Shown in pieces: positions 589 through 5,763 of a DNA stretch of 64,000 bases. The DNA is from Verrucomicrobiota bacterium (lineage in GTDB: Bacteria; Verrucomicrobiota; Verrucomicrobiia; Limisphaerales; J093). Location of the stretch: positions 1 through 64,000 of the forward strand of contig JAKLFY010000009.1 in assembly GCA_022710935.1 (NCBI GenBank). The letters are read 5' to 3'. Under the pieces are notes generated by a model that did no database searches, was not told the origin of the DNA, and saw only the letters and a list, made by a program, of their open reading frames with translations. Both the position numbers and the translations under genes were made by a program. Numbering within the stretch: position 1 is the stretch's first letter; each line of letters begins with the position of its first letter.

Positions 589-1359
589 TCAACCACGGCT
601 GAGGACCTCGAGCAGGTGCCGGATTTCATCATCAACCTCGCGCGGATCACTGACGGTTTGGGCTGCTTCGTGCCGGAGAATCTCGCGGTACCGATTGCGC
701 AGGCGGAACAGCGCCGACTTGATGGCGGACTCGGTGAGGTGAAGCGTGGCAGCCAGGGCTCCGTAGGATGTCGGCTCGGTTCCGCCGTCCTGGGCCGCCC
801 GGAGGTGCTCGAAAAGCGCGAGTTTTCCTGTCGCTTGACATTCCCCGTGCAAGCGGTCCCAGGCCAGTTCGAGCAAGGTCAGCGCCCATCGGCGGTCGTA
901 GGCCGCGTCAGGAGCCAGGCCCGCGGCCATTTCCAAGGCGTAGCGTCGACTGGCGTCTTCGTCATCGAGGGAGATTCTTAGGTTCTGTCCGCCTCGTTTC
1001 TGCGCCTCCTCCTTCCGGACTTCGCCGCCCACATAGCGTTTGAGGCAGATCAGCAGGAAGGAACGAAACCGCCCCTTGACGGGATCCGCCGTGGCCAGCC
1101 AGTCACGTTCGATCAGTCTGGCAAAGAAGGACTGAATCAGGTCCTCGGCATCCGCCTCGGTGTGGCCTGAGCGCCGGAGGAACGCGTAGAGCGGATACCA
1201 GTACGTGCGGCACAGTTGTTCCAACGCGATTTGAGAACCCGGAGTGGAATCGTGGGCGGCACTCAGGACCAGGCTCCATTGCGTGGACAGGAATTGCGCC
1301 GTGCCCCCCGCTGTCGGTGCGGATTCCGGCTTTTGGTCTGTGCCCGCGTCTGCGTTCAT
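589..1359 (-). CDS. ECF-type RNA polymerase sigma factor
   Basis: Sigma-70 family factor of the extracytoplasmic-function type, predicted to direct RNA polymerase to a small regulon. A region-2 core is visible (YWYPLYAFLRRSG, then AEDLIQSFFARL) followed by a region-4 helix-turn-helix (SYGALAATLHLTESAIKSAL), with a linker between them. The FLSTQWSLVL opening is typical of Planctomycetes/Verrucomicrobia ECFs. I chose the ATG at 1359 because homology begins about 17 residues later; an upstream start at 1488 adds 43 residues of unlike composition. Unlike the second ECF at 47380, no kinase or anti-sigma gene lies beside it; the MFS gene upstream is unrelated. The family call is firm; the target is unknown. 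Confidence 0.88.
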   Translation of the reverse strand: MNADAGTDQKPESAPTAGGTAQFLSTQWSLVLSAAHDSTPGSQIALEQLCRTYWYPLYAFLRRSGHTEADAEDLIQSFFARLIERDWLATADPVKGRFRSFLLICLKRYVGGEVRKEEAQKRGGQNLRISLDDEDASRRYALEMAAGLAPDAAYDRRWALTLLELAWDRLHGECQATGKLALFEHLRAAQDGGTEPTSYGALAATLHLTESAIKSALFRLRNRYREILRHEAAQTVSDPREVDDEIRHLLEVLSRG

Positions 1360-1505
1360 GCCCCAGAGCACTCGCGCCAACCGTCGGTCGGTGAACCGGC
1401 AAACGTCACCCAGGTTGTGATGCCGCCGCACTGGCGCACTCGGTCGCCATCGATCAATGGCCTTGTCGGAAACGAAGGTGGAATTCAACCCTCAACCGAT
1501 CGAAC

Positions 1506-2693
1506 TCATCCTCTGAACATCGCCACCATCGCGACCAGGCAGACCAGCGTCGTCGCGCAGGGAACCAGGAAGAGCTGTCGCCAGCGGAAACTCCCCTCCG
1601 GCGTCTTGAGCTTGTCCATGACCACCCCGGTGAATTGTGTGCCCAGGAAGAAGCCGAAGCCGAAGAGCACCACCGTGTAGAGGCCCTGGGCGGAGCCGCG
1701 GATGTCCGGCGGCGCCACCTCGTTCACATAAACGAACCCCACCCAGATGAAGAAGGTATACGCCAGCCCGTGCAAGCCCTGCGACAGGATCACCGGAACG
1801 CGGCGGGGCATCAGGGAGTAAACGGCGTACATGGCCAGCCACAGCGCGATGCCGATCGAGAAAATCCCGACGAAACCGATCTGGGCGCGAATGCCGGAGG
1901 TGTGGAAGGCCAGCACCGCCGTAGCGGCCAGTTGCGCAACCTGGGCCAGGGTCATGACCGCGGGGATGGAGCGCCCCGGCACGCCCAATTCCGAAAGGTA
2001 GGGGGCCGTGGCCAGAAAGAAGAACTGAAGCTGCGAGGCCAGCAGGAACGCGACAATCAGGAAGATCAGGAAGTTGAGGTTGCTCAGCAGGCCCAGGGCT
2101 TTGAGGAAAGGCAAGGCATCTCCGGCGCGACCCGGCGGAGGCGTGTGCGGCAAGGTGAGGCAATAGAGCCCCATCGCCAAGGCCAGAGCGCCGGCCAGGA
2201 CCAGGCAGTCGGCGCCCTCGTCGTTGCCTTTGAACCGCCGCCAGAGGGTGAGGGCCCAACCCGCCACCGCCCAGCCGACCGTGCCCCACAAGAGCACCCC
2301 GAAGGACTGGTTGGCCGGATCGGTCAGGTGGGCAAACATCAGGGAGTTCACCAACGCCAGCGTCGGGGCGAAGGTCAGGGCGTAGAAGAACATGATGGCG
2401 AACAGGGGGGGAAAGCGCCGCTGGCGGGCGGAAGCCAGGAGCAGGAGTCCCCCGGCCAAGTGAGCTGCGGCTAGGAAATACTGCGTGGCCACCCAGCGGT
2501 CGGCAATCTGCCCGGCGATCAGGGGAGCAATGATGCAGCCGAGATAGATCGTGCCGTAAATCCATCCAGTCTGCTTGCCGCTCATCTTCAGCGGGCCCAG
2601 CAGCCGCGCGGCCAGCACCGGCGACCACGCCCCCCAGACAGCGAACTGGAGGAACATCATCAGACTCAACTGCAGATAGACTTGCCAGCTCAT
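1506..2693 (-). CDS. MFS transporter, nucleoside:H+ symporter type
   Basis: Inner-membrane transporter of 395 residues with about twelve hydrophobic helices. The opening (LSLMMFLQFAVWGAWSPVL) and the TGWIYGTIYLGCIIAPLIAG segment match the nucleoside:H+ symporter branch (NupG/XapB-like, Pfam Nuc_H_symport). In Planctomycetes and Verrucomicrobia this branch is often beside sugar-catabolism genes, so a nucleoside or sugar substrate is only a guess. Length is normal for the family. The ATG at 2693 follows GGAGGAGTTCTA, a strong ribosome-binding site, which settles the start. A partly overlapping frame beginning at 2727 is a shadow. Confidence 0.85.
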   Translation of the reverse strand: MSWQVYLQLSLMMFLQFAVWGAWSPVLAARLLGPLKMSGKQTGWIYGTIYLGCIIAPLIAGQIADRWVATQYFLAAAHLAGGLLLLASARQRRFPPLFAIMFFYALTFAPTLALVNSLMFAHLTDPANQSFGVLLWGTVGWAVAGWALTLWRRFKGNDEGADCLVLAGALALAMGLYCLTLPHTPPPGRAGDALPFLKALGLLSNLNFLIFLIVAFLLASQLQFFFLATAPYLSELGVPGRSIPAVMTLAQVAQLAATAVLAFHTSGIRAQIGFVGIFSIGIALWLAMYAVYSLMPRRVPVILSQGLHGLAYTFFIWVGFVYVNEVAPPDIRGSAQGLYTVVLFGFGFFLGTQFTGVVMDKLKTPEGSFRWRQLFLVPCATTLVCLVAMVAMFRG

Positions 2694-2827: not shown

Positions 2828-3094
2828 TCATCGCGGCGCGTCCGGCCTTTCGGCGCGCCGGGCCAGTCGCTGCGCCATCCCGCTGAAAATCACCGCGTGA
2901 ATGGGATAGAGCAGATACCAGTCCAGCAAGCCGGCGAGCCCGCGTGGGGCAAAGATTGCGGTTTGAGAGAGCCGTATACTGGCGTCATCCACCGGCTCGA
3001 CCCGAAGCTCCAGCCAGGCCCGGCACCTTCATCTCAACCCGCCGATGTAGCCGGTGGCGCCGGTGACGAGAACCGTCTTGGTCGTCGAATTCAT
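2828..3094 (-). pseudogene. SDR/DUF2867 NAD-binding protein remnant, middle deleted
   Basis: Only the two ends of the gene remain, in the same frame. From the ATG at 3094 the frame reads through the Rossmann start TKTVLVTGATGYIGG and stops at 3029. Directly after that stop, the same frame continues with AWLELRVEPVDDASIRLSQT and then IFAPRGLAGLLDWYLLYPIH, ending at 2828. That second part looks like the C-terminus of SDR proteins carrying DUF2867 (a lipid-binding START-like tail). A normal member has over 400 residues, so roughly 1 kb was lost in one internal deletion. It lies 38 bp downstream of the SRPBCC gene, in the order expected of a light-regulated SDR/SRPBCC/MerR cluster. Confidence 0.72.
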
Positions 3095-3131: not shown

Positions 3132-3587
3132 TTAACCTCGCTCGGCGCCAAACAGCTCCTGCATCCGCTGCTGACGGAACTCGAAGATCCGCTCGACGTC
3201 CCGGCGCACAAACAGCCAATTGATCAAGACGCCGCCGCGTGGCCGGTAACGGATGCAGTCGGCGCAGAGCGTTCCGCCATCCCGTTCCTCGAATGTGTGC
3301 GTGTGATGCCACAGGGTGTAAGGCCCTCGCACCTGGACGTCCACGAAACGATGCGGCGGCTGCCACTCGGCGATCTCCGTGCGCCAGCGCAACGAGACGC
3401 CATGCACGCGGATGCGGTAGTCAATGAGCGTGCCAACGCGCATGACGATCGGCGCGGGCGTGAGGACCTCGAAGTTCAGCCACGGCGGCGTTAGCGCTTC
3501 GAGGTTTCGCGCCTCCGCGAAAAAGGGGAAGACGTCGTCCCTCGGGCGGGGCAGCCACAGCTCGGTCTGCAGTGAGTATTCCTTCAT
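3132..3587 (-). CDS. SRPBCC (START-like) family protein
   Basis: A 151-residue protein with the SRPBCC ligand-binding fold, of the type annotated as cell-division inhibitor or epimerase-associated protein. Visible hallmarks are PRPRDDVFPFFAEARNLEAL at the N-terminus, a central TLIDYRIRVHGVSLRWRTEI, and FEFRQQRMQELF at the C-terminal helix. The function is unproven; such proteins bind small hydrophobic ligands. The ATG at 3587 is four bases after the stop of the MerR gene, so the two are probably co-transcribed and translationally coupled. An upstream start at 3692 would overlap the MerR gene by about 100 bp and is rejected. Next downstream is the SDR remnant. Confidence 0.72.
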   Translation of the reverse strand: MKEYSLQTELWLPRPRDDVFPFFAEARNLEALTPPWLNFEVLTPAPIVMRVGTLIDYRIRVHGVSLRWRTEIAEWQPPHRFVDVQVRGPYTLWHHTHTFEERDGGTLCADCIRYRPRGGVLINWLFVRRDVERIFEFRQQRMQELFGAERG

Positions 3588-3591
3588 CGTC

Positions 3592-4536
3592 TCATCGCTT
3601 TGCCATTTCTGAAGGTCGTCGCAGATGGTCGAGGGCCTGGCCCAGTTGCGCCAGGTCCTCCGCAAGAATGGCGCCGAGCTGCCGCAGGACATTGCTGTAC
3701 GCAGGCATGGCGCGACCGCCCACCAGCAGCGCAGTCTGGGCCGGCAAGGACTCGCGCAGCAGCGTCAACTCACTTGGCAGGTTCGCGTCGTCTTCAGGAT
3801 AGACGAGGCTCAACGCCACCACGCGCGCCTTCTTCTGGCGGGCGGCCCCAGCGATTTCCAAGGCGGGCAGACTGGCGCCGAGATTTGTAACCTGCCAGCC
3901 CAGGTTGGCGGCCGTGGCGCCAACGAGCAGCGCGCCCATTTCATGAAGTTGTCCCGACGGCGTTGCCACCACCATGGAGGGCGCACCTTCGTTGCCACCG
4001 AAGGGCTTCCCGAGGCCGGCCAGAAACGAGCGAATGTGGCCCGTGGCGAAGTGCTCGTGGGCAGCGGTGATCTTGCCGTCCCGCCAGAGGTCGCCGAGCG
4101 TCTGCACCAAAGGAGCAACCAACCGGTGGAGCACGCCCTGGACGCCCAGCGCCGTCGCGGCGCGCCTGAGCGTGTCGTCCAAGGCGCGCGCGTCGAGGGA
4201 ATGCACGGATGTCAGGCACTCATCGAGCGGCGCCTCGGGTGCGGGCGTGGCTGCGGATGAACCCGGGGCCTCGATTCTCAGGCCGACGGTGTTGGCGGCC
4301 AGGGCCCGGAGCTTGTCGTTCGAGAGCCGCGCCACCTGGCTGATGTTGTGTCCCGCTCGTGTGGCATCCCGCAGCAGGCTCAAGCGCTCGATGTCGCCAT
4401 CGGAGTAGAGCCTGTGGTTGGCCGGCGTGCGCGTCGGATCCACCGCGCGGTAGCGCTGCTCCCAGATCCGGATGACATGGGTGCTCAAGCCGGTCAAACG
4501 CGCGGCCAGGTGAATGGGATGATGGGCCTCAGTCAT
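3592..4536 (-). CDS. CarH/LitR-like B12-dependent MerR photoreceptor repressor
   Basis: A 314-residue MerR regulator with a cobalamin-binding half. Residues 7-75 form the MerR helix-turn-helix (IRIWEQRYRAVDPTRTPANH). Residues 105-175 form the helical light-sensing domain and contain W151 followed nine residues later by E161-H162, the W-x9-EH signature of CarH. Residues about 185-305 form the Rossmann-like B12 domain, with H198 in the HxxG motif (GQLHEMG) that supplies the lower cobalt ligand. In known CarH proteins, adenosylcobalamin promotes a DNA-bound tetramer in the dark and light breaks it. All these residues are kept, so B12-dependent light sensing is likely. It would regulate the SRPBCC gene and perhaps the CIA30 gene across the intergenic region. 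Confidence 0.85.
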   Translation of the reverse strand: MTEAHHPIHLAARLTGLSTHVIRIWEQRYRAVDPTRTPANHRLYSDGDIERLSLLRDATRAGHNISQVARLSNDKLRALAANTVGLRIEAPGSSAATPAPEAPLDECLTSVHSLDARALDDTLRRAATALGVQGVLHRLVAPLVQTLGDLWRDGKITAAHEHFATGHIRSFLAGLGKPFGGNEGAPSMVVATPSGQLHEMGALLVGATAANLGWQVTNLGASLPALEIAGAARQKKARVVALSLVYPEDDANLPSELTLLRESLPAQTALLVGGRAMPAYSNVLRQLGAILAEDLAQLGQALDHLRRPSEMAKR

Positions 4537-4540
4537 ATCT

Positions 4541-4560
4541 TACACAACATTTCTACATTA
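4541..4560 (-). promoter_or_regulatory. Candidate CarH autoregulatory site just upstream of its start
   Basis: TACACAACAT (4541-4550) is followed by TTCTACATTA (4551-4560). The two TACA cores are 13 bp apart and lie 5-24 bp before the ATG of the CarH-like gene. CarH operators in Thermus are built from TACA-containing repeats, so autoregulation is plausible. The spacing differs from the ideal 11 bp, so this is a weaker candidate than the site at 4763. Confidence 0.35.
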
Positions 4561-4744
4561 CCACGCCCCGACGCAACAAAAAAAGCAAACCTGTTGCATC
4601 GTGGATCGCCTGGCTGAGGGCAGTCAGGCCTGAGCCGGAGCACACCCTGGCGACACATTTTCACCATGCTGCGCGAGGATTCAGGTCCCATCGACCTGAC
4701 CTGAAAAGTTGAACATGTTGCCACAACAACACGGCTACCGGCCC

Positions 4745-4783
4745 TTGACATTCCACATGTACTACACAATCATTACACAATTG
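4745..4783 (+). promoter_or_regulatory. TTGACA box with two TACACAAT repeats 11 bp apart (candidate CarH operator)
   Basis: A consensus -35 hexamer TTGACA (4745-4750) is followed by TACACAAT at 4763-4770 and again at 4774-4781, start-to-start distance exactly 11 bp. Known CarH operators use 11-bp direct repeats with a TACA core, each read by one MerR domain. The repeats would overlap the -10 region, so a bound tetramer would block transcription in the dark. The transcript would run rightwards toward the CIA30 gene, 380 bp away. The -10 box itself is not clear. Confidence 0.5.
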
Positions 4784-4927
4784 AGTTAGCCGATGGTCGG
4801 CAGTCGAACGTGAGAACAAAACACAAACCGTGACACATCGCATGAAATCAAATCGCATCGTCACCGTGGCGGCCATCTGCCCTGTTGTCACCGGCACAGT
4901 CCAACGGGGTGACTCTCGTGATCAATG

Positions 4928-4995
4928 GACAGAGAGTGACACACCCCCTACGTGCACAAGGCGTTCAGACTTCGCAAGAGGACGGCGATGCGGGT
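4928..4995 (+). repeat. Dispersed 68-bp repeat, copy 1
   Basis: This stretch aligns without gaps to 25012-25079 at 58 of 68 positions, beginning GACAGAGAGTG and ending ATGCGGGT. Both copies lie in intergenic DNA upstream of a plus-strand gene for a secreted protein. Mismatches do not fall preferentially on any codon position, so a shared peptide is unlikely. It may be a small mobile or structured element, or a shared leader. Confidence 0.6.
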
Positions 4996-5163
4996 TGGAA
5001 AAGCAAAACCGCACCCGGTTCGAGAGTCAGAGAAATGCAACACGCTGTTCATATGGAAGAACACCTTCAGGAGCGACGGGATCCTCTTGGTTCCCTTTCC
5101 GAGCGCGGTTTTGCCAACCAGCCCGGCTACGGTTCCTCGCGTAGCGTATGAAGTAACCGGTTT

Positions 5164-5763
5164 ATGAGCAATCGCCTCCAATACTCATTTCTTGCCTTTG
5201 CCACCTGTTTTGCCATGCACCTGACAGCAGCCCAGAATCAGCCGGTGGTGCCCATCGCAGAGCCTGCAAGGTCCGCGGACTGGCAGGTGATCAATGACGA
5301 TGTGATGGGTGGGATCTCGACCAGTCAGATCCGCGTCTCGACAAACGGAACACTGGTCTTTGAGGGGACAGTCTCACTTGAAAACAACGGCGGCTTCGCT
5401 TCAGTACGTTCCGTCCCGGTGCTGTGCGACCTGACGGGTTGCGATGCCTTCGTCGTGCGCGTTCGGGGCGACGGGCGACGATACAAATTCACCGTGCGGA
5501 CAGAGCGCAGGTTGGACAGCGCGATCTACCAGGCCGAGTTTGTGACCAAGGCGGGCGAATGGCAGGAGCATCGACTGGCTTTCAAGGAATTCGTGCCGAC
5601 CTTTCGAGGCCGGGTCCTATCGGGCAGACCGTTGCTGGACCCGGCAAAGATCGCCTCGGTAGGATTCCTGATCTCTGACAAGCAAGCTGGTCCCTTCCGG
5701 CTGGAAATCGACTGGATCAAAGGACTGCGCCCCACTGGTCGAGGGCAACAGGATCCGCGTTGA
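5164..5763 (+). CDS. CIA30 family secreted protein
   Basis: A 199-residue protein with an N-terminal export signal (hydrophobic stretch FLAFATCFAMHLTAAQ), then a single CIA30 domain (complex I intermediate-associated protein 30 family, a galactose-binding-like beta sandwich). The family core is clear: DWQVINDDVMGGISTSQIRV, then GGFASVRSVP and the closing FRLEIDWIKGL. Bacterial CIA30 proteins are of unknown function and are sometimes found in light-responsive clusters with CarH/LitR regulators, photolyases and SRPBCC proteins, which fits this context. The last twelve or so residues after DWIKGL are not family-like: they are an out-of-frame reading of the beta-helix fragment that follows, so the natural C-terminus appears replaced at a deletion junction. 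Confidence 0.78.
   Translation: MSNRLQYSFLAFATCFAMHLTAAQNQPVVPIAEPARSADWQVINDDVMGGISTSQIRVSTNGTLVFEGTVSLENNGGFASVRSVPVLCDLTGCDAFVVRVRGDGRRYKFTVRTERRLDSAIYQAEFVTKAGEWQEHRLAFKEFVPTFRGRVLSGRPLLDPAKIASVGFLISDKQAGPFRLEIDWIKGLRPTGRGQQDPR

Follow-up and report, generated by a model that had tools for sequence, protein, structure and literature searches.

The open reading frame at positions 3592 to 4536, on the minus strand of the window (the whole stretch of 64,000 nucleotides that was analysed), very probably encodes a CarH-type repressor that uses adenosylcobalamin (AdoCbl) as its chromophore and would hold a photo-oxidative-stress regulon repressed in the dark. The frame, which we call carH, is intact and specifies 314 amino acids, and its assignment as a predicted MerR/B12-binding photoreceptor-repressor draws on the frame itself, on Pfam domains, on a structure match and on a residue alignment. 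A sequence-only reading had proposed a CarH-like protein here: the coordinates proved real, the strand, which it had left unstated, is minus, and the CarH-like identity is supported by the CarH-type fold, the pocket signature, the operators and a cobalamin adenosyltransferase gene present in the genome. Its Verrucomicrobium host agrees with metagenome-assembled genomes (MAGs) named 'Verrucomicrobia bacterium', which hold proteins 76-77% identical. Homologues of carH were found at E<=1e-30 in 98 of the 245 genomes of the same order and at E<=1e-40 in 12 of the 387 genomes of a phylum sample (window genome included). If the assignment is true, a B12 light switch and its operator code are placed in a phylum, Verrucomicrobiota, for which our literature searches over titles and abstracts found no CarH paper.

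Domains, fold and cobalamin pocket

Three Pfam domains, all above cut-off, make up the carH product: MerR_1 (residues 10-72), B12-binding_2 (105-170) and B12-binding (188-279). A MerR-type DNA-binding domain, whose recognition helix reads RIWEQRY, is followed by a helix bundle (B12-binding_2, with W151 and E161-H162) and a Rossmann B12-binding domain (with H198), which is the domain order of CarH and class I LitR proteins. The best PDB match is Thermus CarH/LitR (E about 3e-25). The structure predicted from a seven-sequence alignment has a mean pLDDT of 82.6 and aligns with AdoCbl-bound Thermus CarH at Z 22.0 over 199 residues (rmsd 2.5, 31% identity), and in structural alignment it matches photocobilins and CtMerR equally well. 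Superposition of the whole chain on the crystal gives an rmsd above 10, meaning that the MerR part is modelled relative to the B12 part unlike in the crystal, and the linker between the two may be flexible. The score against the NCBIfam equivalog TransRegCarH (NF052513) is 117.2 bits, below its cut-off of 400. MetH and methyltransferase corrinoid proteins are further matches of the B12 domain, as would be expected if the gene encoded an accessory or corrinoid protein of a B12-dependent enzyme, fused to a MerR domain and unrelated to light. This explanation is extremely improbable, given that the best matches are CarH and photocobilins, that the light-responsive signature described below is complete and that CarH-type operators are present.

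Residues of the pocket were compared across 45 proteins, the window protein and 44 relatives; the latter came from 40 fetched regions, mostly the better-scoring among 110 known places, and from L023-L026, with L021 and L022 excluded because they share contigs with L053 and L052. W151, E161-H162 and H198 are where the sequence-only reading had put them and are near-invariant (W151 and E161 in 45/45, H162 and H198 in 44/45), and G148, G195, G220, P224, S243, G273 and G274 occur in all 45. The published CarH motif Wx9EH (PMC9304148) is intact in W151, E161 and H162. In addition, every element of GxxW, EH, GxxH and GxxxP, reported as the (SignatureFinder) signature of light-responsive cobalamin domains (PMC11796333), is present in G148-W151, E161-H162, G195-H198 and G220-P224.

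The further statement of that reading, that all expected residues are present, did not hold at two positions. In the classic motif D/ExHx2G/P x41 SxT/V x22-27 GG, the D/E is replaced by Gln196, which is Gln in 44 of the 45 proteins, and the rest fits (H198, G201, x41, S243, V245, x27, G273-G274); we therefore name the protein CarH-type and not strict CarH. The carH product would work like CarH, and strict membership fails on this D/E and on the NCBIfam cut-off. The second departure is the upper-ligand His that follows the Trp (Thermus His132), which has been reported in many, not all, CarH/class I LitR homologues; its place is taken by Arg152, and position 152 is Arg in 34/45 proteins and His in 2/45. 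The H132A substitution in Thermus CarH is reported to largely block the disassembly of the tetramer in light (PMC10442372), yet CtMerR, with Arg at the H132 position, is described as going from tetramer to monomer in light, its Glu being reoriented and a water being placed at the cobalt (PMC11796333). Since an Arg-type protein still responds to light, CtMerR-like light chemistry would be expected for the carH product as well. This natural family, which almost entirely lacks the upper-ligand His of Thermus, makes the disputed role of that ligand testable. At position 160 (window 4057-4059), 38 of the 45 proteins have His, where Thermus CarH has Glu, and both proteins with His152 carry Gln160. 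From the alignment, His160 is a possible alternative upper cobalt ligand.

The same departures from Thermus CarH, Gln196 and Arg152, together with the loss of its Arg-Asp dimer salt bridge (here Leu197/Ser222, and mostly Leu/Ile/Val197 with Ser222 in relatives), could also indicate a CarA-like or apo-type repressor, which would have kept the fold and the operator and would respond to a partner protein or to the cobalamin level instead of sensing light through AdoCbl; Myxococcus CarA itself is reported to keep the B12 motif and to be B12-independent (PMC9304148). We find this very unlikely, because CarA is without the Trp of Wx9EH, which is conserved here with its Glu and His, and because Arg152 is compatible with the light-driven monomerisation described for CtMerR (PMC11796333).

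Operators, promoter and gene decay at the carH locus

CarH sites are described as tandem 11-bp repeats nnnnTnnACAn lying across promoter elements (PMC9304148), and a repeat scan revealed two such arrays on the plus strand upstream of carH. Predicted operator 1 (4541-4562) consists of two tandem 11-bp TnnACA repeats, TACACAACATT and TCTACATTACC, and lies upstream of the carH start codon at a distance of 4 bp; repeats at a similar place (-26 to -47) occur in other loci, and autorepression of carH is predicted from this position. Predicted operator 2 (4752-4784) has three tandem repeats, TCCACATGTAC, TACACAATCAT and TACACAATTGA. It spans the spacer and the -10 element of a sigma-70-type promoter found by promoter scan on the plus strand (4745-4773), with TTGACA starting at 4745, a spacer of 17 and AATCAT at 4768-4773; this promoter has 10/12 consensus bases and is the sole sigma-70-like one found within 4480-5170. 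A tandem 11-bp operator that overlaps a promoter, as in CarH and class I LitR systems, is thus present. In the 7.52-Mb genome the exact triple TnnACA pattern occurs once, and the reversed-pattern control gave 0. With one mismatch allowed, the whole-genome search and its reversed control gave 10 matches each, and by count the exact site alone is therefore meaningful. Eight of these ten belong to a TGTACA repeat cluster on contig C118, where positions 2745-2857 (genome G000) hold 11-bp-spaced TGTACA-containing repeats on both strands. A one-mismatch site on contig C218 was retained because a fasciclin gene follows it and the promoter in which it lies can be aligned to that of the window.

The genes around carH are a mixture of intact and decayed ones, and Pfam and homology confirmed the SRPBCC gene, the SDR/DUF2867 remnant and the CIA30 gene that had been placed next to it. 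The SRPBCC gene (Pfam Polyketide_cyc, 151 aa, 3132-3587, minus strand), a recurrent carH neighbour, begins 4 bp after carH. Beyond it, homology revealed an SDR-DUF2867 pseudogene (2846-3094, minus strand) consisting of an N-terminal Rossmann motif (VLVTGATGYIGG, 3038-3073), a stop and a DUF2867 C-terminal end, namely the last 59 residues (2846-3022, 51% identity); with its middle missing, the gene has lost the larger part of its length, and an intact relative (locus L219) has 510 aa. Further downstream lie a gene for a nucleoside H+ symporter-family transporter (1506-2693, minus strand) and one for a sigma-70 region 2-like protein just below the Pfam cut-off (589-1488, minus strand). On the other side, after operator 2, there is a fasciclin (FAS1) remnant (4842-4970, plus strand) that retains the start and signal-peptide region only (MKSNRIVTVAA...). 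Its protein match is weak (E=0.003 in an 8-kb search), and at the nucleotide level its promoter and leader align with the corresponding regions of a fasciclin-PQQ pair that is intact and lies on contig C218 of this genome (L115). Downstream of operator 2, the next gene that is still intact encodes a CIA30-domain protein (Pfam; 5164-5763, plus strand), likely with a secretion signal as judged from its sequence; in relatives, the CIA30 gene comes after fasciclin.

With pseudogenes of SDR-DUF2867 and fasciclin on either side of carH, and 380 bp from the end of operator 2 to the next intact gene, the locus could be a relic in which the sensor persists, the local regulon has decayed and carH now mainly regulates itself. 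We consider this unlikely, as the reading frame, the pocket, the promoter and both operators are intact, as are the SRPBCC and CIA30 genes, and the intact fasciclin gene on C218 has a related operator-like site in front of it.

Operators and neighbouring genes in relatives

At least two tandem TnnACA repeats are present in 38 of the 45 carH upstream regions, where a mean of 0.52/45 is expected (50 Markov shuffles), and in 36 of these 38 the repeats lie solely on the strand pointing away from carH (the exceptions being L025 and L066). An unprompted count of 6-mers found TAGACA in 37/45 regions against 3.2 expected. A search for triple sites across the 245 genomes of the same order listed 96, of which 25 (in 23 genomes) are at most 400 bp upstream of carH, 24 are elsewhere in carH-positive genomes and 47 are in carH-negative genomes. 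Among the 29 triple-site loci that were read, 8 hold carH, and 8 of the other 21 have fasciclin (6) or SDR-DUF2867 (2) directly downstream in the right orientation.

Fasciclin relatives were also sought in the 245 genomes, and 70 upstream regions away from carH were read. In carH-positive genomes, sense tandem repeats precede 20/49 such genes (0.3 expected; antisense 1/49), and where no carH was detected they precede 9/21 (0.15 expected; antisense 3/21), so this control gave no separation between the two groups of genomes, an outcome that counts against the main reading. The link between operator and fasciclin is real, yet it extends beyond the genomes in which carH was detected. The lack of separation may come from draft completeness and from a second MerR regulator: in four of the nine carH-negative exceptions the neighbourhood of the fasciclin gene encodes a MerR-domain protein, the one scanned being without a B12 domain, and the remaining ones are incomplete drafts or without explanation. 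Given repeats in carH-negative genomes and a MerR protein without B12 domain, the operator alone is no proof of a B12 sensor. Elsewhere in the order, in a different family, a 325-aa MerR protein (L222, 2031-3008, minus strand), with a CarH-like DNA-binding domain, no B12 domain and a C-terminal part without Pfam match, is encoded beside operator-bearing fasciclin genes, with similar matches in G134, G237 and G206. Judging by its domains, it is possibly a different sensor on the same regulon.

Within the flanks of the 45 carH loci, taken up to about 9-10 kb on each side, fasciclin and RpoD/RpoS-type sigma-70 factor genes are found in 17 loci each, SRPBCC and crtI-type desaturase genes in 16 each and aldehyde dehydrogenase genes in 12. 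The SDR_DUF2867 match counts at -50, -53 and -77 are false, because the query frame began antisense to carH, and were left unused, and one neighbour-family grouping mixes fasciclin and CIA30 by chaining, partly via a CIA30-fasciclin fusion that is divergent from carH in an Akkermansiaceae MAG (L023, 419-1939, minus strand). In many loci (L078-L083, L086-L089 and others), the gene that lies divergent from carH encodes an RpoD/RpoS-type sigma factor, which suggests a light-to-sigma-factor cascade.

Loci without carH bear out the earlier suggestion that SRPBCC, SDR-DUF2867 and CIA30 form a cluster of the light-regulated type, since two of them group these genes around the same operator. In one relative (G011, L219; its carH, 73% identical, lies on another contig), the operator is flanked on one side by SRPBCC with the 510-aa SDR-DUF2867 gene and, on the other, by fasciclin, a fragment that we read as photolyase-like (no Pfam match), a peroxiredoxin, an old-yellow-enzyme-type reductase and CIA30. 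In another (G138, L218; carH 77% identical), it precedes fasciclin, TspO and CIA30. In a further genome (G150, L224), a triple site has a photolyase-related gene nearby, oriented away from it. Carotenoid genes were considered too: in the window genome, a cluster of two crtI-like genes and a glycosyltransferase gene (C204, L103) is without tandem operator repeats, so we do not claim carotenoid genes as direct CarH targets in this genome; five of six matching carotenoid loci of relatives are without tandem repeats, and in the sixth, L108, a single weak pair occurs.

Light induction has been reported in Mycobacterium kansasii for two fasciclin genes, for tspO and for a photolyase gene (PMC9861118), and a Rhodobacter fasciclin gene is described as upregulated under photo-oxidative stress (PMC7074977). 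The algal fasciclin AstaP is reported to bind carotenoids, which a cyanobacterial homologue did not (PMC10147662). We take these parallels as leads only. Our literature searches that combined fasciclin with CarH or LitR turned up no relevant titles or abstracts among the matches listed. The present data would tie fasciclin proteins, described elsewhere as induced by light or photo-oxidation (PMC9861118, PMC7074977), to a candidate for their direct light repressor, one whose binding site can be read in the sequence.

Proposed mechanism and comparison with known systems

For cobalamin binding, the oligomer switch, the light response and the direction of regulation, we infer the following scheme. 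In the dark, AdoCbl would sit between the helix bundle, whose Trp151 would stack on the adenosyl group with Glu161 and His162 close by, and the Rossmann domain, whose His198 would be the lower cobalt ligand; the holo-oligomer would bind the TnnACA repeats at 4541-4562 (its own gene) and 4752-4784 (the divergent promoter), excluding RNA polymerase. Light would break the Co-C bond, the oligomer would loosen and both transcripts would start. With Arg152 in place of the upper-ligand His of Thermus, the light state is expected to be non-bis-His and CtMerR-like, with Glu reoriented and water holding the cobalt. The regulon would serve photo-oxidative defence: at the locus SRPBCC and CIA30 would be what remains after decay of the local fasciclin and SDR genes, and the fasciclin-PQQ pair on C218 would likely be controlled in trans. 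A broader proposal, which we hold as plausible though short of probable, is that Verrucomicrobiota have a B12-light-switched photo-oxidative-stress regulon with a distinct Gln/Arg-type cobalamin pocket, in which secreted fasciclin (FAS1) is the most recurrent direct target, with SRPBCC, SDR-DUF2867, CIA30, TspO, photolyase-like, peroxiredoxin, sigma-factor and carotenoid genes around it. As its boldest extension, the light-induced FAS1 protein might carry carotenoids outside the cell, by analogy with algal AstaP.

Thermus thermophilus CarH (PDB 5C8A, 5C8D-F) shares with the carH product the domain order, the fold (Z 22), the W/E/H/H pocket and the 11-bp TnnACA tandem operator over a promoter. 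It differs in having H132 and E175 (numbered by counting from H177) where Arg152 and Gln196 stand here, an Arg-Asp salt bridge in place of Leu197/Ser222, a recognition helix other than RIWEQRY and neighbouring targets other than SRPBCC, fasciclin and CIA30. CtMerR from Chloracidobacterium thermophilum (PDB 8JBS/8JBT; PMC11796333) has in common the Arg at the H132 position and a MerR domain with a light-responsive B12 domain, and is itself reported as a tetramer in the dark and a monomer in light; identity in the structural alignment is about 20%, however, and the DNA-binding domain of CtMerR is described as different from that of CarH. CarA, in turn, is without the Trp that is present here as W151. 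Myxobacterial CarH is described with operators of tandem TnnACA repeats in variable number and with adjacent carotenoid genes, as in 16/45 loci here, whereas it has the classic D/E in its B12 motif and its described regulon is carotenoid synthesis (PMC9304148). Finally, class II LitR of Pseudomonas (PMC9758184) is likewise a MerR protein with a light regulon, one that includes photolyase and further photoprotective genes, but it keeps the helix bundle only and serves a LOV photoreceptor as effector in P. mendocina.
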